Assembly (NCBI GenBank): GCA_900466575.1
Contig: UBMP01000003.1
Location: 1 to 59,073, forward strand
DNA from: Hyphomicrobiales bacterium
Lineage (GTDB): Bacteria; Pseudomonadota; Alphaproteobacteria; Rhizobiales; Rhizobiaceae
Reading direction: 5' to 3'
DNA length: 59,073 bases
Shown: positions 29,817-45,654 of the stretch, in pieces
Layout of the letters: every line of letters begins with the position of its first letter
Numbering within the stretch: the first letter of the stretch is position 1
Program-made: the position numbers and the translations under genes
The notes under the pieces: generated by a model
Seen by the model: only the letters and a program-made list of their open reading frames with translations
Told to the model about the DNA's origin: nothing
The model's database searches: none

Positions 29817-31037
29817 TCAGCAGCTTTCGGTGTCGAGGGTCAGGGGCGACCATAGGAGCGGCAGGTAGGCCCTGAGCCAAAGGATGAGGGAAAGGCCCCA
29901 GCACAAGGCCGCGACGGCGTGCGGGCCGCCGGGCAGCGTCAAATCGGGCAGGAACTCCGGAGCGACGCGCAGTATGACGGCCACCACCATCAGCAGAAGG
30001 CCGAGCTTTGCGACTGCCGGGATACGCAAAGGCTGGCTCGTATGCAGCAGCCCGGCAATGGATAGCACGGCAAGCAGGCCGAGCCCAAGGCCGCCCATCG
30101 ACATCAGATGCAGGGCGGCGATGAATGAGAGCGGTAGCCCGACGAGCGACAGTCCGCCGACGATGAGGCCAGCGCCGGCAAACCCGCTCGATAACGATAA
30201 GGTGGCAAGTTCTGCCCGCAACGATTCTCGCCCGACAAAGCCCTCGGCGACGCGATCGAGGAAAGCGGCGCCGGCCGCCACCATCAGATAGCCGCGCACC
30301 GGCTCGGACAGCCCGGTGATTTCCGCCACGAGCAGCAGGCCGATGAGGCCCGGCGCAAAGTTGAGCCGGCCGGGATGCGGGCGATAGGGCGAGGTGACCT
30401 CGGTCGGATCCAGCACGAGATTGGTGACCGGGACGGTGATCCGCGACAGGGCAAGGCCGAGCAGGCCGAGAAAAGCGAAGGTGGCGAGCCGTATCGCAGT
30501 CTCGCCGGCGTCGACATCGCCTTGCAGCATGGCGAGACGCAGCAACCCGGCAGCGACCGCGAGGGCGGAAAGGAAGAGGATGAAGCCGAGCAGCCCTGTG
30601 GTGCGGCGGCGCCAGGAGAGGTGTAGCGCATAGGCGACCAGGAAGATCAGCCACGCCTGGTCGGCCAGCGCGGAGAAGAGGATCAGCATCTCGGCTCCGG
30701 CAAGGCCGGCCAGGCGGGCTACGCCCCACAGTCCGGCAAGAACGACGAGCGGCCTGCCGTGAAGGCGCGGCGTATCGGTCCATTCGGGCAGGGCGGAGGT
30801 CAGGAAACCGATCAGCGCGGCGCCGAACGAGCCGATGATCATCTCCTGTGCGTGCCATTGAGCTGGCATCGTGGTGTTGACAAAGGGCAGGTCGAAGCTC
30901 CAGACGACAGCCCAGAGCAAGGGCCAGAGTGCCGCATGCAGGGCGGCCAGTGGAAAGAACAGCCGCAATCCTTCGCCGGTCATGGCGTCGAGGCGACCGC
31001 GCCGGTCGATGGATGTTTCGAGAAGGGTGGCCGTCAT
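29817..31037 (-). CDS. nnrS: NnrS-family membrane protein (first copy in operon, divergent)
   Basis: 406 residues, about 12 membrane helices. It aligns with the downstream NnrS in layout: LRLFFPLAALHAALWPLLW, then WHAQEMIIGSFGAALIGFLTSALPEWTD and a late HLMSMGGLGLGLLAVLS. It is more divergent, with HAQE where the other has HQHE. Two NnrS-type proteins in one operon may form a pair or have different substrates. The start at 31037 gives an ATGA overlap with the ABC ATPase stop, so it is translationally tied to the ABC transporter. Confidence 0.88.
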   Translation of the reverse strand: MTATLLETSIDRRGRLDAMTGEGLRLFFPLAALHAALWPLLWAVVWSFDLPFVNTTMPAQWHAQEMIIGSFGAALIGFLTSALPEWTDTPRLHGRPLVVLAGLWGVARLAGLAGAEMLILFSALADQAWLIFLVAYALHLSWRRRTTGLLGFILFLSALAVAAGLLRLAMLQGDVDAGETAIRLATFAFLGLLGLALSRITVPVTNLVLDPTEVTSPYRPHPGRLNFAPGLIGLLLVAEITGLSEPVRGYLMVAAGAAFLDRVAEGFVGRESLRAELATLSLSSGFAGAGLIVGGLSLVGLPLSFIAALHLMSMGGLGLGLLAVLSIAGLLHTSQPLRIPAVAKLGLLLMVVAVILRVAPEFLPDLTLPGGPHAVAALCWGLSLILWLRAYLPLLWSPLTLDTESC

Positions 31038-31777
31038 GCCAGGCTCCTTTCGTCGCAATCGTTGACATGGGCAAACAGCCGGTCCCCGATCAGAAATGCC
31101 TGCGCGGTTTCGAACACCATGCGATCGTCGCGCATTCCCGGAGAGAGCGGGACCGTGCGGCTGCCGGCAATTCCACGGCCATGGCGCTCCATCACGACAA
31201 TGCGGTGGGCGATGCGCACCGCCTCGGAGAGATCGTGCGTTATGAAGAGGCCCGATTGCCCGGTTGCCGCCGCCGTGTCGATGACGATATCCTGCATCCG
31301 GCGCTTGAGCGCGACGTCGAGAGCCGTGAAGGGTTCGTCGAAAAAGACGAAATCCGGTTCCGCCACCAGTGCGCGGGCGATGGCGGTGCGCTGGCGCATG
31401 CCGCCGGAAAGCTGCGAGGGAAATTTCTCCAGATCGCGGGCATCCAGAGCGACGCGGTCGGCGACGGCCAAAACCTTCTGCCGACAGACCGATCGTTTGA
31501 AATGGTGGCGCCTGAGCCCGAAGGCGATATTGTCGCCGGCCGTCGCCCATGGCATCAGCCGCGGCTCCTGGAAAATCACGGCATGGCCACGATAGCCGCG
31601 GGTAACATGCCCCTGGCGAGGTTCGAGAAGACCGGCGGCGATATGGGCAAGGGTACTCTTGCCTGAACCGGACGGCCCGACCAGGGCGACGAGTTCGCCG
31701 GCCTCGACCTCAAGATCGATGGCGTCGAGCACCGTGCGCCCGAGAAAGGCATGACCGACATGATCGAGCCTCAACAT
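31034..31777 (-). CDS. ABC transporter ATP-binding protein, NitT/TauT type
   Basis: 247 residues from ATG 31777; an in-frame ATG at 31798 overlaps the permease gene. Walker A GPSGSGKST, signature LSGGMRQR, Walker B FVFFDEPFTALD and the switch His in ITHDLSEA are all intact. It resembles the SsuB/TauB/NrtD ATPases that drive import of sulfonates, nitrate or similar small molecules. It sits between its permease and the two nnrS genes and overlaps the first nnrS by four bases. Confidence 0.92.
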   Translation of the reverse strand: MLRLDHVGHAFLGRTVLDAIDLEVEAGELVALVGPSGSGKSTLAHIAAGLLEPRQGHVTRGYRGHAVIFQEPRLMPWATAGDNIAFGLRRHHFKRSVCRQKVLAVADRVALDARDLEKFPSQLSGGMRQRTAIARALVAEPDFVFFDEPFTALDVALKRRMQDIVIDTAAATGQSGLFITHDLSEAVRIAHRIVVMERHGRGIAGSRTVPLSPGMRDDRMVFETAQAFLIGDRLFAHVNDCDERSLA

Positions 31778-31779
31778 GT

Positions 31780-32589
31780 TCACCGCTTCACTCCCCATGG
31801 CCGTGCGGCCTCGCGCCAGGTTTCAAATTCGGAGCGCATCGGTTGCAGGATGCCATATTCGACGCTGATCAGGGCGGTGACGGACAACAGGATCCAGGCA
31901 AGGGCTGCCGCCACGTCAAGATTGGCGCGCGCCACCGCCAGTTCCTCGCCGACACCGCCGGCATTGGCGAGCAATTCGGCCATGATCGCTGCCTTGAACG
32001 CCGTGCCGAGAGCCATCACCAGGGCCGGGAAAAGGGCGTGCAGCATCTGGCGCAAGGCGATCTGGATCAGGCGCGTTACCGGATCGATGCCGGCGGCGCG
32101 GGCCATGTCGTCAAGGCCGCGGTCACGACCGGCAATGCCTTCGGCAGCGCCCACGAAGACGATCGGCAGGCAGGCGATCGCCGCTGTCGCGGTGACCGTG
32201 CCCGCGCCGTTGCCGAACCAGATCATCAATAGCACGATCCACGCGATCGGCGGCACGCCGAGTATCAGGGTGATCTGGGGGCGGGCAAGCCGCATCACGG
32301 CCGGATGATAGCCGGCCAGCACGCCGGCAAGCGTTCCAATCGTGGCGGCAACAACAAATCCCATCAGCGCCCGGCCGGCCGTGGCGCCAACCAGCCACCA
32401 GGTCTGCGTGTCGGCCAACAGGAGGGCCATGGTGGAAAGCGTCTCTGTTGGCGACGGCAGGATAAAGCTTCCATATGCTTCATGGCCCAATTGCCAGGCT
32501 GCGGCGAAGACCGAAAGTCCGGCAAGGCCTGCCCAGGCCGACCAGAGGAAGCGTCCGGTCCGTCCCGCACGAACGGCAATCAGCGACAT
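31780..32589 (-). CDS. ABC transporter permease, NitT/TauT type
   Basis: 269 residues with about six membrane helices and the cytoplasmic EAA-like loop (GAAEGIAGRDRGLDDMARAAGIDPVTRLIQIALRQMLHALFPAL), as in SsuC/TauC/NrtB. It forms the membrane channel of the importer. The stop is two bases before the ATPase start and the start lies ten bases after the binding-protein gene. Confidence 0.92.
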   Translation of the reverse strand: MSLIAVRAGRTGRFLWSAWAGLAGLSVFAAAWQLGHEAYGSFILPSPTETLSTMALLLADTQTWWLVGATAGRALMGFVVAATIGTLAGVLAGYHPAVMRLARPQITLILGVPPIAWIVLLMIWFGNGAGTVTATAAIACLPIVFVGAAEGIAGRDRGLDDMARAAGIDPVTRLIQIALRQMLHALFPALVMALGTAFKAAIMAELLANAGGVGEELAVARANLDVAAALAWILLSVTALISVEYGILQPMRSEFETWREAARPWGVKR

Positions 32590-32599
32590 TGGCTTGTCC

Positions 32600-33625
32600 T
32601 CAGAGATAAAGCGTTTCGTCCGGCATCCTGCCGCCGATCATTTTCGGATTGTCCCGGGCTATGGCGAGAAACAAGGCGTCCAGGTCGGGTCGCGCGGCTT
32701 TTGCCCGTATGGCGACAAGATTGGAAAAGGGAATTGCCTTTTCGATCACCGGCCAGGGCAGTTCCAGCGCGGAGGCGGCATGGCCTGCTGCCTCCGACGG
32801 ATCGGCGATCACAGCGGCGATGGCTTTCTCCAGGGCAATCAGCAGAGGTTCGACCTTGTCGGCATGATCGGCGAGAAACCGTGCATCGAGGGCAAGGCCT
32901 GCCTGCGGCATCACAGGGCCACGGCCGGTGACCTTGCCCCATTCGGGCTGCATGTCGATGCCCCGGTAGACGGTCTTGCCCGCGACCGCGGCTTTGACCA
33001 TGGCCGCCGTGGCCGCCGGTTCCGGCACCAGCGCGATGTCGATGCGCCCGGTGAGCAGCATCTGGATAGCCTCGATCGGCGTGCCGGTCCGGTCGACCTC
33101 GACATCGGTGCCGGCCACCATGCCATAGTTGCCGAGCACGGCGTCGAATACCAGTTCCGGCGTATCGTTGGGGAAGGGCACGGTGATCTTGCGGCCCTTC
33201 AGGTCGGCAATGGTCCGGATCGCCGGGTCGGTGGAAATGACGTAGAGAAGGCCGTTGGTCATCACATTGGCAAGCCTGACGCCAAGCCCGCGGGTATGCA
33301 GGTTGGCCGCCGCCGTCACCGGCATGACGACAACCTGCATGGATCCCGATGTGAGGCCTGCCCGCATCTCGTCGGGCGTTCGCCACGCCTTGAAGGTGAC
33401 CTTGTCGGCCACATCGCGCAGCAGACCGGCGCCGGCGGCGTAGGCAAGCGTGATCGAAGGTCCGGCCGGGGGGCCATAGAGGGTCAGTTCGGCAAGCGGT
33501 GCCGCCTCGGCGCGGCCGATGCAGGGAAGCGCCAGAAAGCCGGCAAGCCCCGCGCAGACGGTGCGACGCGACATCGTGGTGCCGGAACCAAGGAGTGTCG
33601 ACGGTCGGCGCGTGTCTCTGGTCAT
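32600..33625 (-). CDS. ABC transporter periplasmic substrate-binding protein
   Basis: 341 residues. A Tat-like signal is visible at residues 18-42: SRRTVCAGLAGFLAL followed by ALPCIGRAEA. The mature protein has the NMT1/OpuAC-like periplasmic binding fold seen in NitT/TauT systems (LYGPPAGPSITLAYAAGAGLL; TDPAIRTIADLKGRKITVPFPNDTPELVFD; LLTGRIDIALVPEPAATA). The ligand is unknown. AGGA lies eight bases before the ATG. An NnrR-like box is centred 73 bases upstream of the start, so the whole ABC-nnrS operon appears NO-controlled. Confidence 0.88.
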   Translation of the reverse strand: MTRDTRRPSTLLGSGTTMSRRTVCAGLAGFLALPCIGRAEAAPLAELTLYGPPAGPSITLAYAAGAGLLRDVADKVTFKAWRTPDEMRAGLTSGSMQVVVMPVTAAANLHTRGLGVRLANVMTNGLLYVISTDPAIRTIADLKGRKITVPFPNDTPELVFDAVLGNYGMVAGTDVEVDRTGTPIEAIQMLLTGRIDIALVPEPAATAAMVKAAVAGKTVYRGIDMQPEWGKVTGRGPVMPQAGLALDARFLADHADKVEPLLIALEKAIAAVIADPSEAAGHAASALELPWPVIEKAIPFSNLVAIRAKAARPDLDALFLAIARDNPKMIGGRMPDETLYL

Positions 33626-33690: not shown

Positions 33691-33706
33691 TTTGCGCCAG
33701 AGCAAA
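33691..33706 (-). promoter_or_regulatory. NnrR-like box, ABC-nnrS operon promoter
   Basis: TTTGCGCCAGAGCAAA, an inverted repeat of the type TTTGNG-N4-NNCAAA, 66 bases before the binding-protein start. One of four similar sites in the window, spaced as an activator site near -41.5 would be. Confidence 0.7.
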
Positions 33707-33757
33707 CAATCATGCGGACCGGTGGGGATGACACGGCGGCATCGGCATCGGCAGCGC

Positions 33758-34225
33758 TCAGGCAAGGATCTCCCGTCCTTCCGACTGGGCAGCCAGCAGT
33801 GCCTCGATCATCAGTTTTTCCGAGGAGACATGGCGGCGGACGCCTTCCAGGAAGCCGTGGAACATGTAGCGAAGGGTGTCGGCAGAAAGCTCGCACCGAT
33901 CCTCCGCGACAGCCTTGAGCGTCTGCACCATTTCCTCGCAGGCCAGCGCATCGCAGCGATGCTCCGCCTTCAGCCGCTCGATGACCATGCCGGCAAAGCG
34001 GGAACCGGCATTGCTGTCGAAGTCGGGAAACAGGACCTGCTCCTCAAGCAGATGGGCTTGCTTCAGCAGCGGGACCATGTCCCGTGCGACGTCGAGGCAA
34101 TCATCCTTGTCGACGTCGACGGGCAGGCTATCGGCAATCTCCTCGAGGGTGAGGCAAAGGCGCAGAAGCCCGTCGTGACTGCGCTCCAGCGTGGCAAGAT
34201 TTCCGGCGTTCAGTTTTGCGTTCAA
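33758..34225 (-). CDS. Small hemerythrin-domain protein
   Basis: 155 residues from a TTG start at 34225, chosen because GAAGGAGGA lies seven bases upstream; the longer frame to 34321 includes the ribosome site itself. A hemerythrin four-helix bundle is supported by ERSHDGLLRL, HLLEEQVLFPDF, LKAEHRCDAL and HVSSEKLMIEALL, which provide the His and Glu ligands of a di-iron centre. Such proteins bind O2 or NO or repair damaged clusters. It has its own NnrR-like box and lies between the TonB receptor and the ABC operon, all on the same strand. Confidence 0.85.
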   Translation of the reverse strand: MNAKLNAGNLATLERSHDGLLRLCLTLEEIADSLPVDVDKDDCLDVARDMVPLLKQAHLLEEQVLFPDFDSNAGSRFAGMVIERLKAEHRCDALACEEMVQTLKAVAEDRCELSADTLRYMFHGFLEGVRRHVSSEKLMIEALLAAQSEGREILA

Positions 34226-34306
34226 GGCAAGTCCTCCTTCAAGGCGGCAAAATCCCGGAATTGCCCGCTCCGCGGCAAAACCATGCCGCAGGTCGCAGCG
34301 CGTCTC

Positions 34307-34322
34307 TTTGCTCCGGCACAAA
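34307..34322 (-). promoter_or_regulatory. NnrR-like box, hemerythrin promoter
   Basis: TTTGCTCCGGCACAAA, 82 bases before the TTG start of the hemerythrin gene and beyond the TonB receptor stop. Same palindrome class as the three other sites. Confidence 0.65.
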
Positions 34323-34385
34323 CAATCCCGCGGCGCACCGATATAGGTGTGCCGCGGAACAAGGCGATGATCCGGCCGGGCCGCT

Positions 34386-36668
34386 TCAGAAGCGGCTTGT
34401 CACTCCGACATAGAAACCGCGGCCTTCTCCGGGAAGGAAGGCCGCCTGGTCCGGCGTTGCCTGATCAACGATCAGCGTCGACGAGGCATATCTCTCGTTG
34501 AACACATTGGTGATCTCGCCGAACAGCGACACATGATCGTTGATCCGGTATTCCGTCTTCAGATCGACCACCGCATAGGGATCGGCCCAAAGCGTGTTCA
34601 TGTTGTCGACCGGGGTCTTGTCCGGAACCCATTTAAGGCTGGTGCCAAGCGACCAGTCTTCGGTCGCCTGGTAGGAAAGGGAGGCATTGATGACGTGGCG
34701 AGGAGCGCCAGCCAGCTGGTTGTCGCCACGCAATAGATCATCGCGGAACCGGAAATCCTGGTAGGTATAGGCAAGGCGTCCGGTCACGCCGTCGTAAAGA
34801 TCGGCCGTCAAGCCAAGCTCGATACCGAAATGCGTCGTCTGGTCGGCATTGATCGCACCCAGCGAGGCGCCCGTTGCGTCGCGCAGGCTGAGCAGTTCGT
34901 TGTCGATCCAGGCATAGTAGGTCGTGGCGTCCCAGCGCAGGACGCCATGGCTGCCCCGCCAGCCGACCTCCACCGTGGTGGCTGTCTGCGCCTCCAGATC
35001 CGGCGTCGAGAAGACCGCTGCCGGCAGTGTCGGATTGCCGGGCGCCAGGCGTCCGGGGCTGCTGTTCGGCGTGCCGTTGACGGTGGCGAGCAGATCGTCA
35101 TGGGTCGGCGGCTCGAAACTCCGGCTGACGGCGGCAAACAGGATCTGGTCGGCGGCGGGCTCGAAGGTGAGCCCGAGGCTCGGGCTCCAGGCGTCGTAGC
35201 TGTAGTCGTAGTCGGTGCTGACCGTCGGAACGGCGCCGTCCGGCAGGCGGACCGTCGGATTGGCCGGATTGTAGGCGACCGTCGGCCGGGTCGCGGCCGA
35301 ATAGGTGTCGTCGCTTCTGCGCGTCGCATGGGCATAGGATATCGCCGGCGACAGGGTCCAATTGGCCGAAAGCGGGATGTTGAAGCCGGAATGCAGTGAG
35401 AGCGTCGAGGCGTCGAGATCGTTCGAACCGAACAGGTCGCCGCGCTTGCCCGATTCGTTCAGGTAGTAGCGCCGCTCCGCCGAACCGATAGTGTACTGGG
35501 CTGTGGTTTCGAACAGCGGCAGCAGACGATTGGCATCGGGCGTATAGGCATACCGCAGCATGCCGGTGAGGTCGCCGCCAACCGTTTCGCGGATGCCGGA
35601 CGAGACGGGAAAGCGGAACGTGTCGTCGGTATAGGTATAGCCGAAGCCTATGTCGATCTGGTGGTCGCCGAGATCGGCGGTGGTGCGCGAGCCGATAAGG
35701 TATTGGCTGGCGTCGCGCCGCGGCCGGTCCCGCTCGACGTTCGGGCCGGGATTGATCACGCCGGTCGGCGTGACTACCGGGCCCGAGGAGACCTGGGACG
35801 GATCGTCTTCGAGCGCCTCCTTGTTGATCGGCCCGGAGACATCGAAGCCCAGATCCGTGTAGCTGAAGAACAGCCGTGTCGTCACCGTATCGGAAAGTTC
35901 CGCTTCAATATTTCCGCCGATCTCGACGCGGTCGGATGCGTTGTAGTCGCGGAAACCGTCGCGGCGCGTCACATCGAAGTGAAGCGCGGCATCCAGGCCG
36001 TCGCCGTCGTATCCCGTCCGACCCGACGTGCCGACCTGACCGAAACTGCCGCCGCCAACGGTGAGTTCGGTGCCCGGCATTGTCACGACCGTGGGAGACA
36101 TGATGTTGATCGCCCCGCCCAGTACCGTGGCGCCCAGCCGGTTCGCCATGTAGCCGCGATAGACCTCGATTGCGTCGGCAGCCCCCGGATTGGCAAAGCC
36201 GACGATATACGATCCGTCGGCCCGGTTGATCGGCAGGCCGTCGCGCAGCATCAGGATACCGCGCTCGACCGGGTTCTGCTGCAGGCCGGAACCTCTGATC
36301 TGGACGCGCGGCTGGTCGTTCGCGCCGAAGAAATCCTGGACCACGACGCCGGGCACACCTGCCAAGGCGTCCGACAGGGTCGGTGCGACCAGAGACCCGT
36401 AGTCCTGTTTCGACACCAGCGACACACCGCCCGGCAGCAGCCAGAGCCGTTCTGCGATGACGCCGAGCGTTCCGTTCTCATCCGTCTGCACGACAATGGG
36501 GTCGAGCATCGTCGTGGCGCCGGGCGCTGCCGACTGAGCGAATGCCCCATTGAGGGCCGTCGAAGACATCAGGACGGCGGTCGCCAGGAGTTTTTCAAGA
36601 TGTGCGCGATGATCCGATCGCGGCCAGAACCTGGTCCGCCGCATGCTGTTACCCCATCTCCGAAACAT
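34386..36668 (-). CDS. TonB-dependent outer-membrane receptor
   Basis: 760 residues from ATG 36668, preceded by GAAAGGA; an ATG at 36710 lacks a ribosome site. A signal peptide ends near ALNGAFAQS. The plug domain follows (LSDALAGVPGVVVQDFFGANDQPRVQIRGSG ... RGILMLRDGLPINRADG ... AIEVYRGYMANRLGATVLGGAINI), then a 22-strand-type barrel ending in GRGFYVGVTSRF with the terminal Phe. It resembles FecA-like siderophore or metal-chelate receptors. Together with the nearby ABC importer it could form a full uptake route; the ligand cannot be told. An NnrR-like box lies 208 bases upstream of the start. Confidence 0.9.
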   Translation of the reverse strand: MFRRWGNSMRRTRFWPRSDHRAHLEKLLATAVLMSSTALNGAFAQSAAPGATTMLDPIVVQTDENGTLGVIAERLWLLPGGVSLVSKQDYGSLVAPTLSDALAGVPGVVVQDFFGANDQPRVQIRGSGLQQNPVERGILMLRDGLPINRADGSYIVGFANPGAADAIEVYRGYMANRLGATVLGGAINIMSPTVVTMPGTELTVGGGSFGQVGTSGRTGYDGDGLDAALHFDVTRRDGFRDYNASDRVEIGGNIEAELSDTVTTRLFFSYTDLGFDVSGPINKEALEDDPSQVSSGPVVTPTGVINPGPNVERDRPRRDASQYLIGSRTTADLGDHQIDIGFGYTYTDDTFRFPVSSGIRETVGGDLTGMLRYAYTPDANRLLPLFETTAQYTIGSAERRYYLNESGKRGDLFGSNDLDASTLSLHSGFNIPLSANWTLSPAISYAHATRRSDDTYSAATRPTVAYNPANPTVRLPDGAVPTVSTDYDYSYDAWSPSLGLTFEPAADQILFAAVSRSFEPPTHDDLLATVNGTPNSSPGRLAPGNPTLPAAVFSTPDLEAQTATTVEVGWRGSHGVLRWDATTYYAWIDNELLSLRDATGASLGAINADQTTHFGIELGLTADLYDGVTGRLAYTYQDFRFRDDLLRGDNQLAGAPRHVINASLSYQATEDWSLGTSLKWVPDKTPVDNMNTLWADPYAVVDLKTEYRINDHVSLFGEITNVFNERYASSTLIVDQATPDQAAFLPGEGRGFYVGVTSRF

Positions 36669-36875
36669 TACGGGTTCCTTTCCCCCAAAGCAGTTATGGC
36701 GATGTCGCACCGACCGCGGGGTGGAAAGGAAGGGGTCAAGACCGCGTCCTCAGGCCCCGGGCACCGGCAACTGCCGACAGAGGGGATAGAGCGACCGGAA
36801 AGGTCTCGCGGAGACGCACTTGGAGGTAAATCTGCATTTCATGCGTATCGCATAGCCTACATTTCGACCGTGTTC

Positions 36876-36891
36876 TTTGTGCCAGGACAAA
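36876..36891 (-). promoter_or_regulatory. NnrR-like box, TonB receptor leader
   Basis: TTTGTGCCAGGACAAA, upstream of the TonB receptor gene. The leader of about 200 bases between box and start is long and holds no ORF I trust. The left end of the IS91-type element begins only a few dozen bases beyond the box, so an original promoter neighbour may have been lost. Confidence 0.6.
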
Positions 36892-37040
36892 TAGGATCCA
36901 CCTAGAGTATCCGTATTTTTCAGAATCGGTTCGGATTGAACTAAGCCGCTGATCGCGGCGACTTGCGGCGGCCTTTGAGGAGAGGCTCCTGACTGAGAGG
37001 ATGGTTGTGTTGCAACCCACCCTTCAGACAGGAGGCCCCG

Positions 37041-37904
37041 ATGGCTGAGATGAGCCCTCTTCGCCGCCGGATGATTGAGGACATGACGATCCGCAATCTA
37101 TCCCCGGCGACCCAGCGATCCTATATTAATGCAGTCCAGAAGTTCAGCCGCTATTTTGGCCGATCGCCCGATCGGCTCGGTCCTGCCGAGATCCACACCT
37201 TCCAGGTTCACCTCGTGTCAACTGGGATATCGTGGGCATCGTTAAACCAGATCGTGTGTGCTCTTCGATTTTTCTATGGGATCACGCTTGGCCAGGACAA
37301 TATCCCGGATCGAATTCCCTATGCACGCGAACCACGCAAGCTCCCCATTGTTCTGTCGGCGGACGAGGTGGCACAATTTCTGGAGGCGGTCTCCAGCCTG
37401 AAGGCGCGCGTTGCGCTGACCACGGCCTATGCCGCAGGTCTTAGGATCGGTGAGGTTTGCGGACTGGAGGTCGAGGATATCGACAGCTCCCGGATGGTGA
37501 TCCATGTCCGCCATGGCAAAGGTGCAAAAGCCCGGTACGTCATGCTTTCAAACGAACTTCTCGGCGTCCTGCGTCGCTATTGGCGCCTGTCACGTCCCAC
37601 AACGTTCCTTTTTCCAGGACGTGATGCTGACAAGCCGATCGAGCCGACCGTTTTGAATGCTGCCTGTCGGTCGGCGGTTGCCGCGGCCGGCCTTGCAAAG
37701 CGGGTGACCGTTCATACCTTGCGGCATTCCTTCGCCACACACCTGCTGGAGAATGGAACCGATATCCGGATCATCCAGGTCCTGCTCGGCCATGCCCATC
37801 TATCAAGCACGGCACACTATACGCAGGTTTCCACCGACACGATCCGATCGACAGCCAGCCCACTTGATCGTTTGCAACTTGAGGTGACGCCACCGGAACC
37901 ATAA
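37041..37904 (+). CDS. Tyrosine recombinase of the IS91-type element
   Basis: 287 residues from ATG 37041 with GGAGG seven bases upstream. N-terminal SAM-like core-binding domain (RRRMIEDMTIRNLSPATQRS) and a full catalytic set: Arg135 in AAGLRIGE, H225-x2-R228 in HTLRHSFA, His251 in LLGHAHLSS and Tyr260. It precedes the transposase by four bases. Its exact part in IS91 transposition is unknown. Confidence 0.92.
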   Translation: MAEMSPLRRRMIEDMTIRNLSPATQRSYINAVQKFSRYFGRSPDRLGPAEIHTFQVHLVSTGISWASLNQIVCALRFFYGITLGQDNIPDRIPYAREPRKLPIVLSADEVAQFLEAVSSLKARVALTTAYAAGLRIGEVCGLEVEDIDSSRMVIHVRHGKGAKARYVMLSNELLGVLRRYWRLSRPTTFLFPGRDADKPIEPTVLNAACRSAVAAAGLAKRVTVHTLRHSFATHLLENGTDIRIIQVLLGHAHLSSTAHYTQVSTDTIRSTASPLDRLQLEVTPPEP

Positions 37905-37908
37905 TCGG

Positions 37909-39096
37909 GTGCGTCCCGCCTTCGAGGTTGCTGACATCTTTCGGCGACATGGGGGTCCTTACAGGCAAGAGAACGCCGGTCATCTTGGCCGCGGCGAACG
38001 ACGCGTCATGGGAGCGATAGAAGCTTGCCGGACGCCACAGCTCGGTGGACACGTCGATGCCTGCGATGACTGCGGCAAGACGCGCATCTCCTATAATTCC
38101 TGCCGTAATCGCCACTGCCCGAAGTGTCAGGGGGCTGCTCGCAAGGAGTGGGTCGACGCACGCATCGCCGATCTCTTGCCGGTTCCCTATTTCCATGTGG
38201 TCTTTACGCTACCACGCGACGTTGCTGAGATCGCTTTTCAGAACAAAGCGGTTGTCTATGGATTGTTGATGCGGATCTCGGCCGAGACCCTGCAGACCGT
38301 TGCGGCCAATCCCAAATGGCTGGGCGCTGAGATTGGCGTCACCGCCGTACTCCACACCTGGGGTCAGGCGATGACCCATCATCCCCATGTCCATTGCGTC
38401 GTGCCGGGCGGCGGTCTCTCGCCGGACAGGTTAAGTTGGGTTGCATCCCGGCCGGCCTTCTTTCTGCCCGTGCGCGTGCTGTCGCGGCTGTTTCGGCGGC
38501 TCTTTCTGACTGCTCTTGCTGAAGCCTTCGCTCACGGTGTACTCCGCTTCTCCAACGACCTCAGCCATCTCAACGACGACGATGCGTTCACCCGCCATCT
38601 CGCGCGTGCTCGCAGCGTCGAATGGGTCGTCTATTCGAAGCCACCATTCGGGGGGCCGGACCAGGTGCTCGCCTATCTCGGCCGCTACACCCATCGTGTC
38701 GCCATCGCCAATAGCCGCATCGTCGATGCCGATGACGACCATGTTGCCTTCCGATGGAAGGATTACCGTGGCAATGGTCGCGACCGTGAGAAGATCATGC
38801 GTCTTCATCCCCACGAATTTATCCGGCGCTTTCTCCTTCATGTGCTTCCTGACGGCTTCCACCGCATGCGCCACTTCGGCTTTCTCGCCAATTGCCACCG
38901 CCGTGATCGTATCGGGCTCTGCAGGAGCCTCTTCGGCCAACCAACATCAACAAGCGAGCAATCTCATTCGACCAAATCGCAGCAGGCAAATTCCTACGAA
39001 TGCCCCGACTGCCGGCGGCCAATGCGTCGAACTGGCGTCTCCTTGGCGCCTGTTGCACCACCGCGACCATCATCCTTCTGGTGCGATACGTCATGA
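37909..39096 (+). CDS. IS91-family transposase (HUH)
   Basis: 395 residues. A zinc-finger-like N-terminus (CDDCGKTRISYNSCRNRHCPKCQG) precedes the HUH motif THHPHVHCVVPGGG and the tyrosine region LAYLGRYTHRVAIANSR, all typical of rolling-circle IS91 enzymes. The frame opens with GTG at 37909; no better start is seen. The C-terminal CPDC motif is also typical. It looks intact. Confidence 0.92.
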   Translation: MRPAFEVADIFRRHGGPYRQENAGHLGRGERRVMGAIEACRTPQLGGHVDACDDCGKTRISYNSCRNRHCPKCQGAARKEWVDARIADLLPVPYFHVVFTLPRDVAEIAFQNKAVVYGLLMRISAETLQTVAANPKWLGAEIGVTAVLHTWGQAMTHHPHVHCVVPGGGLSPDRLSWVASRPAFFLPVRVLSRLFRRLFLTALAEAFAHGVLRFSNDLSHLNDDDAFTRHLARARSVEWVVYSKPPFGGPDQVLAYLGRYTHRVAIANSRIVDADDDHVAFRWKDYRGNGRDREKIMRLHPHEFIRRFLLHVLPDGFHRMRHFGFLANCHRRDRIGLCRSLFGQPTSTSEQSHSTKSQQANSYECPDCRRPMRRTGVSLAPVAPPRPSSFWCDTS

Positions 39097-39481
39097 TGCC
39101 CGACAAGCAGCCTCTCAGAGTATTCCCAGTCGTTCAGCGCGTCTTCGGCGAGCAATATCGCTCGACCGCAGCAAGCTCAAAAGGCTGCGGATCCCTTCCG
39201 ATATCGCAGCGAAGTCCTCGGCAAACCGCACAGGAAAGCATCATTCCCCGCTCAGCGCCGCTAGCAAAGCAGTCGGAACGAGATACGGCGGACTTCATCT
39301 CCGGCGGCATGGCTCTCAATTCCCCATAGAAGGTCAAACAACCCGCGTCTTAGTTCAATCCGGCTTACATGAGGCCGCCCGAAGTCGCCGCACCGTTCAT
39401 GCGACCTCAAATAACCCTCCAGATTCACGAATCGACTTTGTTCTGATTCACTGATGTTGGCTGGATGGAGGCCAGCATCTC

Positions 39482-39673
39482 ATGACAGCCCCTTTATTGC
39501 ATGATCTTCGTGAGCGTGTTGTAGCCGCCGTTTTGAACGACGAAAGTTGTCGTGTCGTGGCGGCGCGTTTCAAGGTTGCCGTCTCTTCGGTGGTGAAGTG
39601 GTCGCAGCGCTATCGCGTGACCGGATCGGTCCGTCCTGGCAAGATCGGCGGCCATCGCAAACGCATCGCCTGA
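39482..39673 (+). pseudogene. N-terminal fragment of IS630-family transposase
   Basis: 63 residues, MTAPLLHDLRERVVAAVLND followed by VVAARFKVAVSSVVKWSQRYR, the helix-turn-helix start of an IS630-type transposase that should run about 340 residues. It stops at 39673 and the DDE domain is absent. It lies directly after the IS91 end and before the RIC gene, so it marks another old insertion. Confidence 0.7.
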
Positions 39674-39765
39674 GCGACACAAGTCTATTTCGTAATGGAC
39701 CACAGCTTGCAAACTTCAGAGTTGTGGCGTCGGCAGGCCGCTTCAGTCATCTCCTTGGCAATGCG

Positions 39766-40434
39766 TCACGCCCGACCTGCCGCGTCGAAGCGCGGGAAAA
39801 GAACGCTGTTTTCCAGGTACATATGGGTTACCAGGTCGTCGACGAATTTGCGCAGCCCCGTGTAGAGTGCCGTCCAGGATCCGCAGGCGCCGACCGGCAG
39901 TGACAGGCTGTGGGTGACGTGCTCGACGGATTTCAACAATCGCGCCGTACCGTCGTGTTCATGCCGCATCTGCTCGATCGGATGGGCGATCATCTCGGTG
40001 CCGCCGCGCCGCATCATGGGAAACAGGACCTGTTCTTCCCGTGCCATATGACCGGTCAACTCGTCGCGCAAGGCAATCAGCGTATCGCTGAGACCAGCCG
40101 GCGCCATGTCGTGGCCGCCATGCACCCGCTCCACCTTCTGGGCCAGCGGGATCAGCCACTCCAGTTCGGCGCGATGGGTGTCGTGGTAGCGGATCAAGAT
40201 GTGATCGATCAGCGCCGCCGTGTCTTCTGGCGCGTCCCGTCCTGCCGCATTGGCCAGTTCCTGCAGGTCGCCAAGCAAGCTATCGGGAACGAGGCCGGCG
40301 CCAAGGGCCGCCTCTGCCAGCCGCACATTGCCGTCGCAACAGAAATTGATGCCCGCCCGGCGGAAAAGCTCGGCGGCACCCGGTAGGTCGGCGGCAATGG
40401 TGCGAACGGTCATGTCGAGGGAAATCGGGATCAT
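39766..40434 (-). CDS. Iron-sulfur cluster repair di-iron protein, RIC/YtfE/ScdA family
   Basis: 222 residues. The N-terminal ScdA domain carries the FCCDG motif (Cys32, Cys33), and the rest is a hemerythrin-like bundle with ligands in YHDTHRAELEWL, MAREEQVLFPMM, RHEHDGTARLL and HMYLENSVLFPRF. These proteins restore or protect Fe-S clusters after NO or oxidative damage and belong to NO regulons in many denitrifiers (DnrN, NorA, YtfE). A 69-aa ORF and an NnrR-like box lie upstream, giving a likely two-gene operon. Confidence 0.93.
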   Translation of the reverse strand: MIPISLDMTVRTIAADLPGAAELFRRAGINFCCDGNVRLAEAALGAGLVPDSLLGDLQELANAAGRDAPEDTAALIDHILIRYHDTHRAELEWLIPLAQKVERVHGGHDMAPAGLSDTLIALRDELTGHMAREEQVLFPMMRRGGTEMIAHPIEQMRHEHDGTARLLKSVEHVTHSLSLPVGACGSWTALYTGLRKFVDDLVTHMYLENSVLFPRFDAAGRA

Positions 40435-40491
40435 GGAGGGTCCTTTCTAGGTCGGCGGTCTGAAATGACGATCGCGGTCAGCGCGTCGCGA

Positions 40492-40701
40492 TCATCCAAG
40501 GTCGGCGGTTCTGAGCGGCCCGATCTGGCCGGAATGGCGGTTTCGCTTGGGCTCCGTTGCCGGTCTTGGCAAAATGCTCTGCACCCGTGCGCCATGCACC
40601 AGGAATTCCATGGTCTGGCATAGGTCATCCGGCAGGCCCGCCTGCGCGGTCAGCATTTCCATCAGGACATTACGGTAGTGTAGTGCTCTGTCGTCGCCCA
40701 T
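40492..40701 (-). CDS. 69-aa protein upstream of RIC, unknown function
   Basis: ATG at 40701, stop 57 bases before the RIC gene. The product starts MGDDRALHYRNVLMEMLTAQ, continues LPDDLCQTMEFLVHGARVQSIL and ends in a basic tail. It lies at the right distance (60 bases) from the best NnrR-like box of the window, which argues that it is a real gene and the first of the operon. There is one Cys and no known domain. Confidence 0.55.
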   Translation of the reverse strand: MGDDRALHYRNVLMEMLTAQAGLPDDLCQTMEFLVHGARVQSILPRPATEPKRNRHSGQIGPLRTADLG

Positions 40702-40760
40702 GGGGATTCCCGGCTATTCACGCATCATTGGGGGACGCTACGCCTGGCGGTGGTCCTGTT

Positions 40761-40778
40761 CTTTGTGCTGGCACAAAG
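40761..40778 (-). promoter_or_regulatory. NnrR-like box, best match, 69-aa ORF/RIC promoter
   Basis: CTTTGTGCTGGCACAAAG, a perfect palindrome apart from the two central bases. It fits the TTGTG-N4-CACAA pattern of alphaproteobacterial NnrR-type regulators. Its centre is 69 bases from the ATG at 40701, which suits an activator site at about -41.5. Confidence 0.75.
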
Positions 40779-41017: not shown

Positions 41018-41977
41018 TTAAGACGCAAGCCCTGAGGCCGCATTGCGCGTGCGGGCGACGAAGGCGGCTCCGGCCTCGTCGTGAAAAAAGCCGTTCGACA
41101 GCGGCACGCCGGGATAGATCGTGCGCAGGCGCGCCAGCCCCTCCTCGCCGTCGATCTGGCCGGACAGCACGTCCTGATGGGCCTGCGCCACCGCCACCAT
41201 GTCGCAGTCCTGCGGCGACAGGCGGATGCGGCGGACGCCGATTGCCGACAGTTCGTCCAACTCGCCAATCAGCGCCTGGCAGGTGAACGACACCGTCTGG
41301 ACGCCGTTCAGCGCCAGGAACGGCTGGCGCGCCAGGGTGTGGACTGGCAGGCCGTCGGGATCGTTTGCGCAGATGAACTGGCAATTGTCCTTGGTGAGCC
41401 CCTTGGAGCGGGCATGCGCACAGCGCGCCGAGATCGCCAGCGGCATGCGTCCGAAGGCAAAAATCTCGAAGTCGGTGTCGGGAGCGCCCTTGATGATCTC
41501 GGCCACCGATGCCATCGGCAGTTCCGGTGGCAGGCAGATACTGAAGGCGCCGCGCGAGGAAAGCAGTCTGGCAGTGGCGGCGTTGTAGACATTGACCAGC
41601 GGCCCGATCGTGTGCGGGCGACCGTTCAGCACATGCAGCGCCGACAGGTCGCCCGCCTCCACCGGCCACAGGCTGTCTGCGGCCATGGCGCGCACATGCC
41701 GGCTCTCGCGCTCCAGCGTCACCATGGCGAGCGAAGCCAGATGCACGCGCTTGCCGGCCGCCTCGAGACGCTCGATGACATCGGCGGCAAAGGGCTCGGT
41801 AAAGTGCAGGCGCTTGGAACAGACGATTTCGCCGAGCGTCACATGGCTGACGGGCGCCTCGTCGGCGATGCGGAAATAGAAATCGCGCCATTTCGGGCCG
41901 TCCCAGAGATAGGGCACGGGGCCGAGGCTGAGGGTCGGGGCGGACGAGGATGGTTCGGGCTTTGATGAATCGGGCAT
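41018..41977 (-). CDS. ubiV: UbiV, U32-type hydroxylase subunit for O2-independent ubiquinone synthesis
   Basis: 319 residues from ATG 41977, preceded by TAGGA; the longer frame to 42010 overlaps ubiU. A U32 'peptidase' fold without protease function. Four cysteines match the 4Fe-4S ligands known in UbiV: Cys53 (GEIVCSKR), then Cys186-x12-Cys199-x3-Cys203. UbiV works with UbiU to hydroxylate ubiquinone precursors without O2, using prephenate as oxygen donor. Here ubiT-ubiU-ubiV form one operon, which would let the cell keep making ubiquinone while respiring nitrate. Confidence 0.93.
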   Translation of the reverse strand: MPDSSKPEPSSSAPTLSLGPVPYLWDGPKWRDFYFRIADEAPVSHVTLGEIVCSKRLHFTEPFAADVIERLEAAGKRVHLASLAMVTLERESRHVRAMAADSLWPVEAGDLSALHVLNGRPHTIGPLVNVYNAATARLLSSRGAFSICLPPELPMASVAEIIKGAPDTDFEIFAFGRMPLAISARCAHARSKGLTKDNCQFICANDPDGLPVHTLARQPFLALNGVQTVSFTCQALIGELDELSAIGVRRIRLSPQDCDMVAVAQAHQDVLSGQIDGEEGLARLRTIYPGVPLSNGFFHDEAGAAFVARTRNAASGLAS

Positions 41978-41984
41978 GGGGTTC

Positions 41985-42962
41985 CTATCTCCAGCGCTTT
42001 TCATAGGCACCGGACGTGGTGCGCTGGCCTTCGCTTAAGAGGTGCAGCCGCGACATCAGGGCTGGGCGTTCCAGCGGTCCGGCGGCAAGCGTCTTGCGCA
42101 GCGTCGAGACGACTTCTGCGACATAGGCCTTGCCGCGCTGGCGGCCTTCGATCTTCAGCGCGCTGACGCCGGCCTCGCGCAGCGCATCGATATGCGCCAT
42201 CACATCCAGCGACGCCGGGTCCTCGAAGGCATAGCCGCTGCTGTCGCCGACATCGAAGCGCCCCTTGCACAGCGTCGGATAGCCGGCGGCCTCGCCGGCG
42301 GGAAAGCGGTTGATGGTGAAGTCGCCGAGTTCGGAGACCAGATCCTTGCCGTCCTGGCGGTAGTGCACGTGGCTGGCTGGCGAGCAGACGCCGTTCATGT
42401 TCGGCGACTTGCCGGTGACATAGGACGACAGCGAACAGCGGCCTTCGGCCATGACGCACAGCCCGCCGAAGACGAAGACCTCGATCTCGCAGCTGATTTT
42501 CTTGGCCAGCTTGGCGATGTCGGGAATGGTGAGGATGCGCGGCAGGACGACGCGCTTGGCGCCAAACGCCTCGACCAGAAAATTGACGGCATCGGCGTTC
42601 GAGGCCGAGGCCTGCACCGAGACATGCAGCCGCGCCTGCGGATGGCGTTCCGCCGTGTAGGCCATCAGGCCGAAATCGGCAAGGATCAGAGCGTCGGCGC
42701 CCAGCCGCACGGCATCATCGACGGCGCCGTACCAAAGCGCCTCCTTACCGGCGCGCATAAACGTGTTGATGGCGACGAAGGTCATCACTTCTTTCGAGCG
42801 CGCATAGGCGATCGATTGCGCCAGTTCGTCGCGGCTGAAATTCAGGCCCGGAAAATTGCGGGCATTGGTTTCGTCGCGAAAGCCGCAATAGACGGCGTCG
42901 GCGCCGGCATTGACGGCTTCGTGGAAGGCGGACGGGGTGCCGGCCGGGCAGATTAGTTCCAT
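41985..42962 (-). CDS. ubiU: UbiU, U32-type hydroxylase subunit for O2-independent ubiquinone synthesis
   Basis: 325 residues. The four cluster cysteines fall at 169, 176, 193 and 232 (GGLCVMAEGRC; NGVCSP; TLCKGRF), the same numbers as in E. coli UbiU, so a 4Fe-4S cluster is expected. It starts inside the last codons of ubiT (overlap of ten bases) and stops seven bases before ubiV, so the three are made together. Confidence 0.95.
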   Translation of the reverse strand: MELICPAGTPSAFHEAVNAGADAVYCGFRDETNARNFPGLNFSRDELAQSIAYARSKEVMTFVAINTFMRAGKEALWYGAVDDAVRLGADALILADFGLMAYTAERHPQARLHVSVQASASNADAVNFLVEAFGAKRVVLPRILTIPDIAKLAKKISCEIEVFVFGGLCVMAEGRCSLSSYVTGKSPNMNGVCSPASHVHYRQDGKDLVSELGDFTINRFPAGEAAGYPTLCKGRFDVGDSSGYAFEDPASLDVMAHIDALREAGVSALKIEGRQRGKAYVAEVVSTLRKTLAAGPLERPALMSRLHLLSEGQRTTSGAYEKRWR

Positions 42963-43459
42963 GCCGGGGCCTCCTCCAAGAGCGCCTGCTCACGTACATA
43001 GCCCACGGCCCGCGTCACCAGCGGCCCGAACGGGCCGGCCATAGCGCCGAGATCGAGCGGCAGGTCGATATCGCAGTCGTCGAGCGCGTTGCGCAACGCC
43101 AGCATCGCCTCCATGTCGCCGGTGACGCTGAGGTCACGCGAAAAGAACAGCGCATCGGCGTCGTATTTGCCTTCGAGCAGCGCCAGCAGCAGATAGAGCG
43201 GCCCCTCGATCGCCGCGTCGGTCGTCACCGGCACCGAGCGGCGCAGCACGCTGATCATCGGTATCGACGGCTCGACGACGAAGGAGAGCGGCAGGTCGGT
43301 GGGAAGGAAACCGTAGCGTTTCGCCCCATGGTCCCCGAGCCGGTCGAGCAGTGCCGGGTGGCGCGCCATCACCTGCGCAAACACCAGCCCCACCGCTCGC
43401 TGGATGACGAACAGCGGCAGGAAATCGAACGGGGCAGCCATCGCTGGAGGGATTCGCAT
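42953..43459 (-). CDS. ubiT: UbiT, SCP2-domain lipid-binding accessory protein
   Basis: 168 residues from ATG 43459, close to the 174 of E. coli UbiT. It has an SCP2 sterol-carrier domain (LSFVVEPSIPMISVLRRSV ... GKYDADALFFSRDLSVTGDMEAMLALRNALDD). UbiT binds the prenylated intermediates for the anaerobic pathway. The longer open frame to 44470 lies under ubiD and is not used. An FNR-like box centred 74 bases upstream fits control by oxygen. Confidence 0.9.
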   Translation of the reverse strand: MRIPPAMAAPFDFLPLFVIQRAVGLVFAQVMARHPALLDRLGDHGAKRYGFLPTDLPLSFVVEPSIPMISVLRRSVPVTTDAAIEGPLYLLLALLEGKYDADALFFSRDLSVTGDMEAMLALRNALDDCDIDLPLDLGAMAGPFGPLVTRAVGYVREQALLEEAPAWN

Positions 43460-43524
43460 GGGCAATACCTTTGTTGAAGAGGCGGTCTCTGCCAGCAGTC
43501 TTAACGCCGCCATTGCCGCCGCCA

Positions 43525-43540
43525 TTTGAGCAAGCTCAAA
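43525..43540. promoter_or_regulatory. FNR-like palindrome between ubiTUV and ubiDX
   Basis: TTTGAGCAAGCTCAAA is a perfect palindrome with the FNR-family core TTGA-N6-TCAA. It lies in the 114-base divergent region. Spacing suits activation of ubiT (start about 43491); towards ubiD it is close to the start codon. Confidence 0.65.
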
Positions 43541-43573: not shown

Positions 43574-45085
43574 ATGACCCAGATGATTCCCGCCGTCCGC
43601 CGCTTTTCCGATCTCCGCGATTTCATGGCCGAGCTCGAGCGCCGTGGCCGCCTCAAGCGGATTTCCGCGCCGGTGTCGCTGGTGCACGAGATCACCGAGA
43701 TCCACCGCCGCACGGTGGAAGCGGAGGGCCCGGCGCTGCTGTTCGAAAAGCCCGTGGATGCCGGGGGCAGGGTCAGCACGATCCCGCTTCTCGCCAACCT
43801 GTTCGGCACGCAGGAGCGGATTTCCTGGGGGCTTGGGCTGGAGGACGGCGGCATTCCCAAGCTTGCCGAAATGCTGGCCGACCTGCGCCAGCCGCAGGCG
43901 CCGGGATCGATCCGGGAGGCCTTTGACAAATTGCCGCTGCTGCGCGCCGCCCTGTCGATGCGCACCCGCAAGGTAGAGCGTCCAGCCTGCCAGCAGATCG
44001 TCTGGCGCGGCGAGGAGCTTGATCTCGGCCGCCTGCCGATCCAATGGTGCTGGCCGGGCGAGCCGGCGCCGCTGATCACCTGGCCGCTGGTGATCACCTG
44101 CGCGCCCGACGACCCCGCCGACATCAATGTCGGCATCTACCGCATGCAAGTGCTCGGCCCAGACCGCGTCATCATGCGCTGGCTTGCCCATCGCGGCGGC
44201 GCAAAACACCACCGGATGTGGCAGAAACTCGGGCGCGACATGCCGGTCACCATTGCCATCGGCACCGATCCGGCCACCATCCTGTCGGCGGTGATGCCGC
44301 TGCCGGAGGGCATGAGCGAACTCGGTTTCGCCGGGCTGCTGCGCCGCAGCCGTACAGGTGTGGCGCAGGGGCTGACCCAGCCGCTGCCGGTACCGGCCAA
44401 TGCCGAGATCGTGCTCGAAGGCACGGTATCGGTGAACGACACGGCGCCGGAAGGTCCCTATGGCGATCACACCGGCTACTATAACGCCGTCGAGCGCTTT
44501 CCGGTGATGACGCTGTCGGCGATCACCATGCGCCGGGATCCGGTCTATCTCTCGACGTTTACCGGCCGGCCGCCGGACGAGCCGTCGCGGCTGGGGGCGG
44601 CGATGACCGAGCTGTTCATTCCGCTGGTCAAGCGGCAGTTTCCGGAAATCACTGACCTGTGGCTGCCGCCGGAGGCCTGTTCCTACCGGATCATGGTGGT
44701 TGCCATCGACAAGCGCTATCCGGGCCAGGCGCGGCGCATCATGATGGGGCTTTGGTCGATGCTGCCGCAGTTCAGCTATACCAAGCTGATCATCGCCGTC
44801 GATCCGGATATCGACGTGCGCAGCTGGACCGACGTCATCTGGGCGCTGTCGACCCGGTTCGATGCCAGCCGCGACGTCATCACCATTGCCGACACGCCGA
44901 TCGACTATCTCGATTTCGCCTCGCCGAAGCCCGGGCTCGGCGGCAAGCTCGGGCTCGACGCCACCACCAAGATCGGTGCCGAGACCGACCGCGAGTGGGG
45001 CCAGGTGCTGAAAATGACGCCAGAAGTCTCGGCCAGGGTCGATGAAATCTGGGCGGGCCTCGGGCTGGCGGAGACGGGCGCATGA
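43574..45085 (+). CDS. ubiD: UbiD-family prenylated-FMN decarboxylase
   Basis: 503 residues from ATG 43574; an upstream TTG frame crosses the regulatory box. UbiD hallmarks include RFSDLRDFMAELERRGRLKRI, the EGPYGDHTGYY motif and GGKLGLDATTK. UbiD removes the carboxyl group of 4-hydroxy-3-polyprenylbenzoate in ubiquinone synthesis using prenylated FMN made by UbiX. The stop overlaps the ubiX start as ATGA. Next to ubiTUV it completes an anaerobic ubiquinone set. Confidence 0.95.
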   Translation: MTQMIPAVRRFSDLRDFMAELERRGRLKRISAPVSLVHEITEIHRRTVEAEGPALLFEKPVDAGGRVSTIPLLANLFGTQERISWGLGLEDGGIPKLAEMLADLRQPQAPGSIREAFDKLPLLRAALSMRTRKVERPACQQIVWRGEELDLGRLPIQWCWPGEPAPLITWPLVITCAPDDPADINVGIYRMQVLGPDRVIMRWLAHRGGAKHHRMWQKLGRDMPVTIAIGTDPATILSAVMPLPEGMSELGFAGLLRRSRTGVAQGLTQPLPVPANAEIVLEGTVSVNDTAPEGPYGDHTGYYNAVERFPVMTLSAITMRRDPVYLSTFTGRPPDEPSRLGAAMTELFIPLVKRQFPEITDLWLPPEACSYRIMVVAIDKRYPGQARRIMMGLWSMLPQFSYTKLIIAVDPDIDVRSWTDVIWALSTRFDASRDVITIADTPIDYLDFASPKPGLGGKLGLDATTKIGAETDREWGQVLKMTPEVSARVDEIWAGLGLAETGA

Positions 45086-45654
45086 GCCGGTTTCGCGTGG
45101 TCGTCGGCATATCCGGTGCCTCGGGTGCTGCTATTGCTGTTCGCATCATCGAGCGGCTGGCGGCACTGGAGGAAGTAGAAATTCATCTGGTCGTTTCCGA
45201 CGCGGCACGCCGCACCCTCGACCATGAGGTCGGTGCGGATGCGTTGACGCGGCTGGTCGCGACGGCGTTCCGGCACTACGGTATCGGCGATATCGGCGCT
45301 TCGATCGCCAGCGGTTCGTTTGCCACCGCCGGCATGATCGTCGCACCCTGTTCGATGCGCACGCTTGCGGCCATCGCCACCGGCCTGTCGGACAATCTGC
45401 TGGTGCGCGCCGCCGACGTGCAGTTGAAGGAGCGCCGCCGGCTGGTGCTATTGGCCCGCGAAACGCCGCTGCATCTGGGGCACCTGCGCAACATGTGCGC
45501 GGCAACCGAAATGGGCGCGATCGTCATGCCGCCGGTGCCGGCCTTCTACCACCTTCCGCAGACGGTGGCCGACATCGTCGATCAAATCGCTGCCCGCGCC
45601 ATCGACCTGCTGGCCCTGCCTTTACCGTCGCTGACAAGGGCCTGGGACGGATAG
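45082..45654 (+). CDS. ubiX: UbiX flavin prenyltransferase
   Basis: 190 residues with VVVGISGASGAAIAVRIIERL and the later APCSMRTLAAIATGLSDNLLVRAADVQLKERRRLVLLARETPLH, the FMN- and prenyl-phosphate-binding parts of UbiX. It makes the prenylated FMN that UbiD needs. Coupled to ubiD by a four-base overlap. Confidence 0.96.
   Translation: MSRFRVVVGISGASGAAIAVRIIERLAALEEVEIHLVVSDAARRTLDHEVGADALTRLVATAFRHYGIGDIGASIASGSFATAGMIVAPCSMRTLAAIATGLSDNLLVRAADVQLKERRRLVLLARETPLHLGHLRNMCAATEMGAIVMPPVPAFYHLPQTVADIVDQIAARAIDLLALPLPSLTRAWDG

Follow-up and report, generated by a model that had tools for sequence, protein, structure and literature searches.

The contig UBMP01000003.1 of a Hyphomicrobiales bacterium of the family Rhizobiaceae (GenBank assembly GCA_900466575.1; the whole contig stretch of 59,073 nucleotides is called the window here) carries a block of genes with five copies of a CRP/FNR-type palindromic box ahead of its transcription units (Table 1). 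We consider this block a probable regulon of the nitric oxide (NO)-responsive activator NnrR, known in kind, to which an ATP-binding cassette (ABC) importer and a TonB-dependent receptor are apparently new members. The genes for a substrate-binding protein (SBP), a permease, an ATPase and two NnrS proteins form a head-to-tail series on the minus strand. The hemerythrin, TonB receptor and RIC genes are found upstream of this ABC-nnrS operon, each with its own box, and beyond RIC follow ubiV-ubiU-ubiT on the minus strand and then ubiD-ubiX on the plus strand. A sequence-only reading of the window had placed four palindromes upstream of minus-strand units (the ABC-nnrS operon, the hemerythrin gene, the TonB receptor gene and a pair of a 69-amino acid (aa) open reading frame (ORF) and RIC), and the sequences read at those positions agree with it. 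Three of the four were said to lie 60-82 bases before a start codon; we measured 66 bp for SBP, 82 bp for the hemerythrin gene (TTG start at 34225) and ∼61 bp for the 69-aa ORF. For the TonB gene we obtained 166 or 208 bp, depending on the start chosen. The fifth copy at 43525, which is the ubiT/ubiD box, had been overlooked.

The boxes were scored with three weight matrices taken from the accessible text of a study of B. diazoefficiens (PMC6710368): one built from eight hand-picked boxes of genes that are down in the nnrR mutant (8-box matrix, TTGAT types excluded), one from all 37 boxes found in that text (37-box matrix), and one from its TTGAT/TTGAC boxes only. Under the 8-box matrix the four sites take ranks 1-4 of the window with 16.7-18.9 bits, ahead of a next-best score of 14.2, and the four matches of at least 16.5 bits compare with a mean of 0.18 and a maximum of 2 in 200 shuffles. 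The 37-box matrix puts the SBP, hemerythrin, RIC and TonB boxes at ranks 4, 5, 6 and 8, and the fifth box at rank 3. The TTGAT/TTGAC matrix ranks the fifth box 2 and the SBP box 4, and it places the hemerythrin, TonB and RIC boxes at ranks 30, 99 and 138. Judged by these scores, all five are good CRP/FNR-type sites. The four are palindromes of the TTGYG type, as are boxes found at NnrR-dependent genes. Because of the ranks under the three matrices, the hemerythrin, TonB and RIC boxes are classed as clearly NnrR-type and poor FNR-type sites, and the SBP and ubiT/ubiD boxes as ambiguous, that is, sites that FixK/FNR could also read.

To follow the boxes in relatives, a scan with an SBP alignment gave 207 relatives, of which the best 80 were kept; boxes were counted per upstream region at a threshold of 8, and genes with no start in range were excluded. 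Boxes were detected upstream of SBP in 43/80 (8-box matrix) and 47/80 (37-box matrix), of TonB in 29/38 and 32/38, and of ubiD in 15/21 and 19/21. The hemerythrin (16/18), ubiT (17/17) and RIC (11/11) counts were the same under both matrices, and each of the six genes exceeds the largest of 40 shuffles. None of the operon-internal controls exceeds its own largest shuffle: permease (5 and 5 of 77 for the 8-box and 37-box matrices), ATPase (0 and 3 of 76), NnrS paralogue A (7 and 11 of 76), ubiU and ubiV (each 0 and 1 of 21). NnrS paralogue B (box in 6/40) and ubiX (2/17) were counted with the 8-box matrix only. Conservation upstream of orthologues, which the sequence-only reading had suggested as a check, was thus found under both matrices with the operon-internal controls at shuffle level, and strong boxes are also present in orthologous ubiT-ubiD gaps. 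The nearest named SBP is that of Ciceribacter naphthalenivorans (96% identical), where the 14-mer of the SBP box is identical (L129); the 16-mer of the RIC box is identical in G709/L256.

The -10 region was analyzed for 65 non-redundant boxes out of 116, the five window boxes included. TATAAT is matched best at an offset of 22 nt from the box, where the mean is 2.71 of 6, followed by offset 19 with 2.14. The second -10 position is A in 82% of the 65 boxes vs. 26% A overall, and all five window boxes have A there. Since the -10 element lies 22 nt from the box, the boxes would be centered near -41.5 of the predicted start points, in class II activation geometry. For FNR-type promoters, this location is established as that of class II.

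It is very improbable that the palindromes are chance matches or unrelated repeats. The pattern of the sequence-only reading with two mismatches showed no enrichment in the window (20 matches, shuffle mean 17.05), and the sites do not stand out by the published consensus TTTGCGnnnnCGCAAA taken alone (the four match 11, 10, 9, and 10 of 12 positions; other places reach 10), both of which would fit a chance origin; set against this are the fixed distance to the -10 element and the conservation at orthologues, seen with both matrices. TTTGNNCNNGNNCAAA, a pattern picked after the sites had been seen, has 9 exact occurrences across the genome (5.14 Mb) vs. 6 for the reversed control, and five of the nine are within this 59 kb contig. 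The RIC box matches TTTGNNCCNGNNCAAA exactly on the minus strand only.

Eleven Crp-type helix-turn-helix genes over the cut-off were found in the genome, and eight of them were read: one has the recognition helix TLHTVSR, four have -ETVSR helices like FNR/FixK, and three are different again. The TLHTVSR gene (C37:83772-84473) is an nnrR homologue, 52% identical to a pSymA protein of S. meliloti that goes by the name nnrR, although its record bears no annotation. It adjoins pseudoazurin, NosR-like and NosZ genes and a third nnrS (cluster C37:72120-84473, with a DUF2249-like gene), and this cluster carries three boxes, TTTGCGCTAACGCAAA, ATTGCGATATCGCAAA and TTTGCGCCAGCACAAC. The accessible text of PMC2908626 sets the NnrR group apart from FNR/FixK/DNR by its motif and by one recognition residue; an NnrR consensus ctTTGcgnnnncgCAAag is given in PMC1274295 (seen in part).

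The match between regulator and box was examined among 394 genomes of the family, with SBP in 14 (E <= 1e-60) and NnrR in 177 (E <= 1e-40). With the 8-box matrix, the SBP box reaches at least 11.6 bits in 9/9 SBP genomes with NnrR, 30-74 bp before SBP, and at most 6.6 bits in the five without (Fisher p 0.0005); by genus, the box is found in 8/8 with NnrR vs. 0/3 without (p 0.006). In four of the five NnrR-lacking genomes the gene ahead (pseudoazurin or TonB) also has no box (2.9 bits twice, 6.6, and 3.2 bits). nnrR is not significantly enriched among SBP genomes (9/14 vs. 168/380 others, p 0.17). The regulator-box match is suggestive, not proof, because the two groups overlap under the 37-box matrix (9.4-19.5 bits with NnrR vs. 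2.2-10.0 without).

That overlap is one of several observations that weigh against NnrR control. A NnrR-lacking genome (G402, a draft, 85% complete) has an 11.4-bit site before the divergent TonB gene. The nar FNR box and one coding-region match outrank the four sites under the 37-box matrix, and the eight training boxes of the other matrix were picked by hand from the 37 with the TTGAT types omitted. The source of the boxes terms them putative FixK2 boxes and notes the lack of a defined NnrR consensus there (PMC6710368). TTGNGNNNNCNCAA is barely enriched genome-wide (38 vs. 30 for the control) and alone is not specific. Many of the 80 loci are close relatives, and 37/80 SBP upstream regions have no box at threshold 8 with the 8-box matrix, including Paracoccus, Roseibium, Stappia, and Roseovarius loci. 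No nirK, nirS or NorB was found in the genome, so that no source of NO is evident; NorB is considered absent because the four COX1-family genes of the genome are CtaD-like (twice), CyoB, and CcoN.

Alternatively, an oxygen-responsive FixK/FNR paralogue may read some or all of the boxes, by itself or together with NnrR; the block would then be partly an anaerobiosis regulon. We regard this as less likely than not. The SBP and ubiT/ubiD boxes fit the FixK2 consensus TTGA/C-N6-T/GCAA, in line with their high TTGAT/TTGAC ranks; the genome has the four -ETVSR paralogues noted above; and an FNR/FixK-like half is present in the SBP box of 5/9 relatives with NnrR (G323, G577, G622, G626, G768). FixK2 is described as a direct activator of nnrR and nnrS in B. 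diazoefficiens (PMC6710368, accessible text), and the DNR regulon predicted in the part of PMC2908626 seen includes NnrS, U32, and a lipid carrier. However, the hemerythrin, TonB and RIC boxes do not fit FixK2, as their TTGAT/TTGAC ranks also indicate, and narK-narGHJI, an operon that also lies in this window, carries a canonical FNR box that differs from them (ATTGATACAGATCAAA, 9415-9430). The choice of NnrR over a FixK/FNR paralogue thus looks clear for the hemerythrin, TonB and RIC boxes, and is ambiguous for the SBP and ubiT/ubiD boxes. The ATTGATACAGATCAAA box, the top window match of the 37-box matrix, is flanked by narK-narGHJI on one side and by an FtrB-like regulator gene (8548-9264) on the other. 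A Crp/Fnr regulator gene with the helix RGETVSR is located at the contig end (58431-59072), adjoining transposase-like genes.

The 69-aa ORF was rejected as a likely protein, on the thin evidence of one pair, and more probably belongs to the RIC leader. It has matches in 10/394 family genomes (E <= 0.01, own genome included), with one other close (G709, 88%). Its differences from G709 by codon position are 3/6/6 (6 synonymous and 8 non-synonymous codons), compared with 9/2/22 for RIC, giving no coding signature, and the RIC boxes of the relatives (11/11) sit 70-82 bp before RIC itself. The NO-type regulon in one block claimed by the sequence-only reading is partly supported, by the conserved CRP/FNR boxes, the -10 spacing and the nnrR homologue; the 69-aa ORF falls away as a member, and NnrR over FixK/FNR is less sure for the SBP and fifth boxes.

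Table 1. Boxes and genes of the putative NnrR block, in window positions.
Feature	Position	Strand	Remarks
Box of ABC-nnrS operon, TTTGCGCCAGAGCAAA	33691-33706	-	predicted NnrR-type, FixK2 fit too; 18.4 bits (8-box matrix); TATTAC at offset 22
Hemerythrin-gene box, TTTGCTCCGGCACAAA	34307-34322	-	predicted NnrR-type; 17.5 bits (8-box matrix); weak -10 CATGGT at offset 22
TonB-dependent receptor gene box, TTTGTGCCAGGACAAA	36876-36891	-	predicted NnrR-type; 16.7 bits (8-box matrix); TATGCG at offset 22
RIC transcript box, TTTGTGCTGGCACAAA	40762-40777	-	predicted NnrR-type; 18.9 bits (8-box matrix); TAGCGT at offset 22
Fifth box, TTTGAGCAAGCTCAAA, common to divergent ubiT (-) and ubiD (+)	43525-43540	.	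fits NnrR or FixK/FNR; 11.1 bits (8-box matrix), 16.5 bits (37-box matrix); TAAGAC at offset 22
NnrS paralogue B	28612..29814	-	PF05940 over cut-off; start by eye
NnrS paralogue A	29817..31037	-	PF05940 at 29844-30977, over cut-off; start by eye
ATPase of ABC importer	31034..31798	-	
Permease of ABC importer	31780..32589	-	
SBP of ABC importer, NMT1/SsuA type	32600..33625	-	
Hemerythrin-domain protein, 155 aa, TTG start	33758..34225	-	PF01814 on longer frame
TonB-dependent receptor, 760 aa, PqqU/YncD-like fold	34386..36668	-	
RIC/YtfE di-iron repair protein	39766..40434	-	TIGR03652 208.6 bits, cut-off 204.7; ScdA_N and hemerythrin domains
69-aa ORF, more likely RIC leader part than gene	40492..40701	-	
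UbiV	41018..42010	-	NF047965 348.5 bits, cut-off 275
UbiU	41985..42962	-	NF047963 494.5 bits, cut-off 440
UbiT-like SCP2 protein	42953..43462	-	PF02036
UbiD-family decarboxylase	43574..45085	+	TIGR00148 466.1 bits, cut-off 244.85
UbiX-family flavin prenyltransferase	45082..45654	+	TIGR00421 208.4 bits, cut-off 108.9

The linkage of the ABC genes to nnrS is constant among the 80 loci: nnrS follows them in 76, and the other four reach a contig edge 166-1015 bases after SBP. TonB is present in 40 loci, ubiD in 21, and RIC in 11. NorB- and NorD-like genes are both present in 16/80; these two assignments follow annotated plasmid proteins that are 98% and 97% identical. Other Nor-like neighbors (C/E/Q) were assigned by neighborhood, and no NCBIfam model was matched by the NorB/C/E/D/Q-like neighbors at E <= 1e-20. 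One annotated plasmid carries the nor genes, hemerythrin-NnrU, ABC-NnrS-NnrS, UbiX-UbiD, and SCP2-U32 in a single 19 kb stretch. The operon is patchy in distribution, since SBP is absent from all five other genomes of the genus (E <= 1e-60), four of which have nnrR. A contig labeled Arenimonas (a gammaproteobacterium; L153) also has the block, its SBP being 80% identical, as a result of mis-binning or transfer. A plasmid labeled Dysgonomonadaceae equals a Martelella plasmid in size and match identity, possibly a co-culture labeling problem. An integrase and an IS91-like transposase (by eye) occupy 37005-39096, just upstream of the TonB box and between the TonB and RIC genes. Elsewhere in the genome, TTTGAGCGAGGTCAAA at C31:67733 lies upstream of a ccmI-like gene (by eye) and is either a further target or a chance match.

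We compared predicted structures of the receptor and the binding protein with solved folds. The SBP model (predicted local distance difference test score, pLDDT, 91.7) matches uncharacterized 3hn0 first, then PqqT, Thi5, and TauA. PqqT is the closest fold of known function, a likeness of fold and weak profile similarity; by full-length sequence profile the SBP is closer to SsuA than to PqqT. The importer shares its SBP, permease, and ATPase families with SsuABC/TauABC/NrtABC ("NitT/TauT"), but it scores far below their curated cut-offs and differs in its constant link to nnrS. The TonB receptor model (pLDDT 79.1, under 50 at residues 128-135) is best matched by PqqU, next by YncD (the same protein) and then by FecA. 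PqqU is its closest solved fold, but at 25% identity, and the PqqU plug residues Y99, Q84, and Q121 correspond to P133, D118, and I155 in the receptor. The PqqU signature given in the accessible text of PMC12124388, Y/F/W at plug position 99, is not seen here, as the aligned residue is an invariant proline (P133). R304 of PqqU is aligned by HMMER with the invariant R328, and is paired otherwise by hhalign; R365 was left without an assigned partner.

With respect to cargo, it is possible, though we would not put it first, that the receptor and the ABC importer take up iron or copper chelates to rebuild NO-damaged metal centers. After PqqU/YncD the closest fold is FecA (ferric citrate), and nosA, a copper receptor of the outer membrane, is a predicted member of the NnrR regulon in Brucella melitensis (PMC1274295, accessible text). 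On the other hand, the receptor scores 30.4 bits with the NosA/OprC-type copper receptor model TIGR01778 (cut-off 472.45), the SBP is of NMT1/SsuA type, and no metal-homeostasis genes were recognized among the recurrent neighbors, most of which were named by eye. A pyrroloquinoline quinone (PQQ) importer was also considered and rejected as the principal explanation: the folds favor it, the plug residues speak against it, and no pqq genes were recognized by eye among the recurrent neighbors. PQQ-like cargo is a lead only. It seems unlikely, though worth stating, that a conserved, NO-switched two-membrane importer (PqqU-like receptor and PqqT-like ABC transporter, co-transcribed with twin NnrS) supplies a redox cofactor whose synthesis needs oxygen, e.g., PQQ or a relative; it would stand beside genes that take the place of other oxygen-dependent pathways, namely ubiTUV for oxygen-independent ubiquinone and, in relatives, hemN for heme. 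PqqC needs oxygen, according to the part of PMC12423496 seen.

NnrR is already known to control nnrS and ubiT/U-type genes (PMC1274295; PMC6710368; accessible texts). The alphaproteobacterial NnrR regulon there has the same box type, nnrS, ubiT/ubiU-type genes, boxed nos and pseudoazurin genes, and a CRP/FNR regulator; the block described here would add the ABC importer and the TonB receptor family, for which Brucella nosA is a TonB-type precedent. In the accessible text of PMC6710368, bll7628-bll7627 (sterol-binding, U32) are down in the B. diazoefficiens nnrR mutant and have a box. Searches of an open-access library turned up no account of the ABC-nnrS operon or this TonB family as an NnrR target. 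In regulator mutants of Hyphomicrobium denitrificans, joint changes are seen in the nar, nor, and nos genes, NnrS, "NitT", ubiXDTUV, and a second set of pqqAED (PMC12423496, accessible text). They were studied there under SoxR/sHdrR, and "NitT" may be the ABC family described here.

We propose that the palindromes are NnrR sites driving class II promoters. NO, or nitrite yielding NO, would be the signal on which NnrR binds directly, at a site ∼41.5 bp ahead of the start point, and brings in RNA polymerase. One cassette would be switched on in this way: NnrS, hemerythrin, and RIC for NO defense and repair, UbiT/U/V together with UbiD/X for oxygen-independent ubiquinone, and a putative two-membrane importer, whose ABC genes are in an operon with nnrS and whose receptor and ABC transporter presumably carry the same solute. 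NnrR-type boxes are present here although neither nirK nor nirS nor NorB was detected in the genome, which suggests that the regulon may serve protection, not full denitrification. A widespread and unnamed transport system, which adjoins nitric-oxide reductase genes in 16 of the 80 loci, would thereby be placed in the NO/anaerobic response of alphaproteobacteria, sharing an operon with nnrS.

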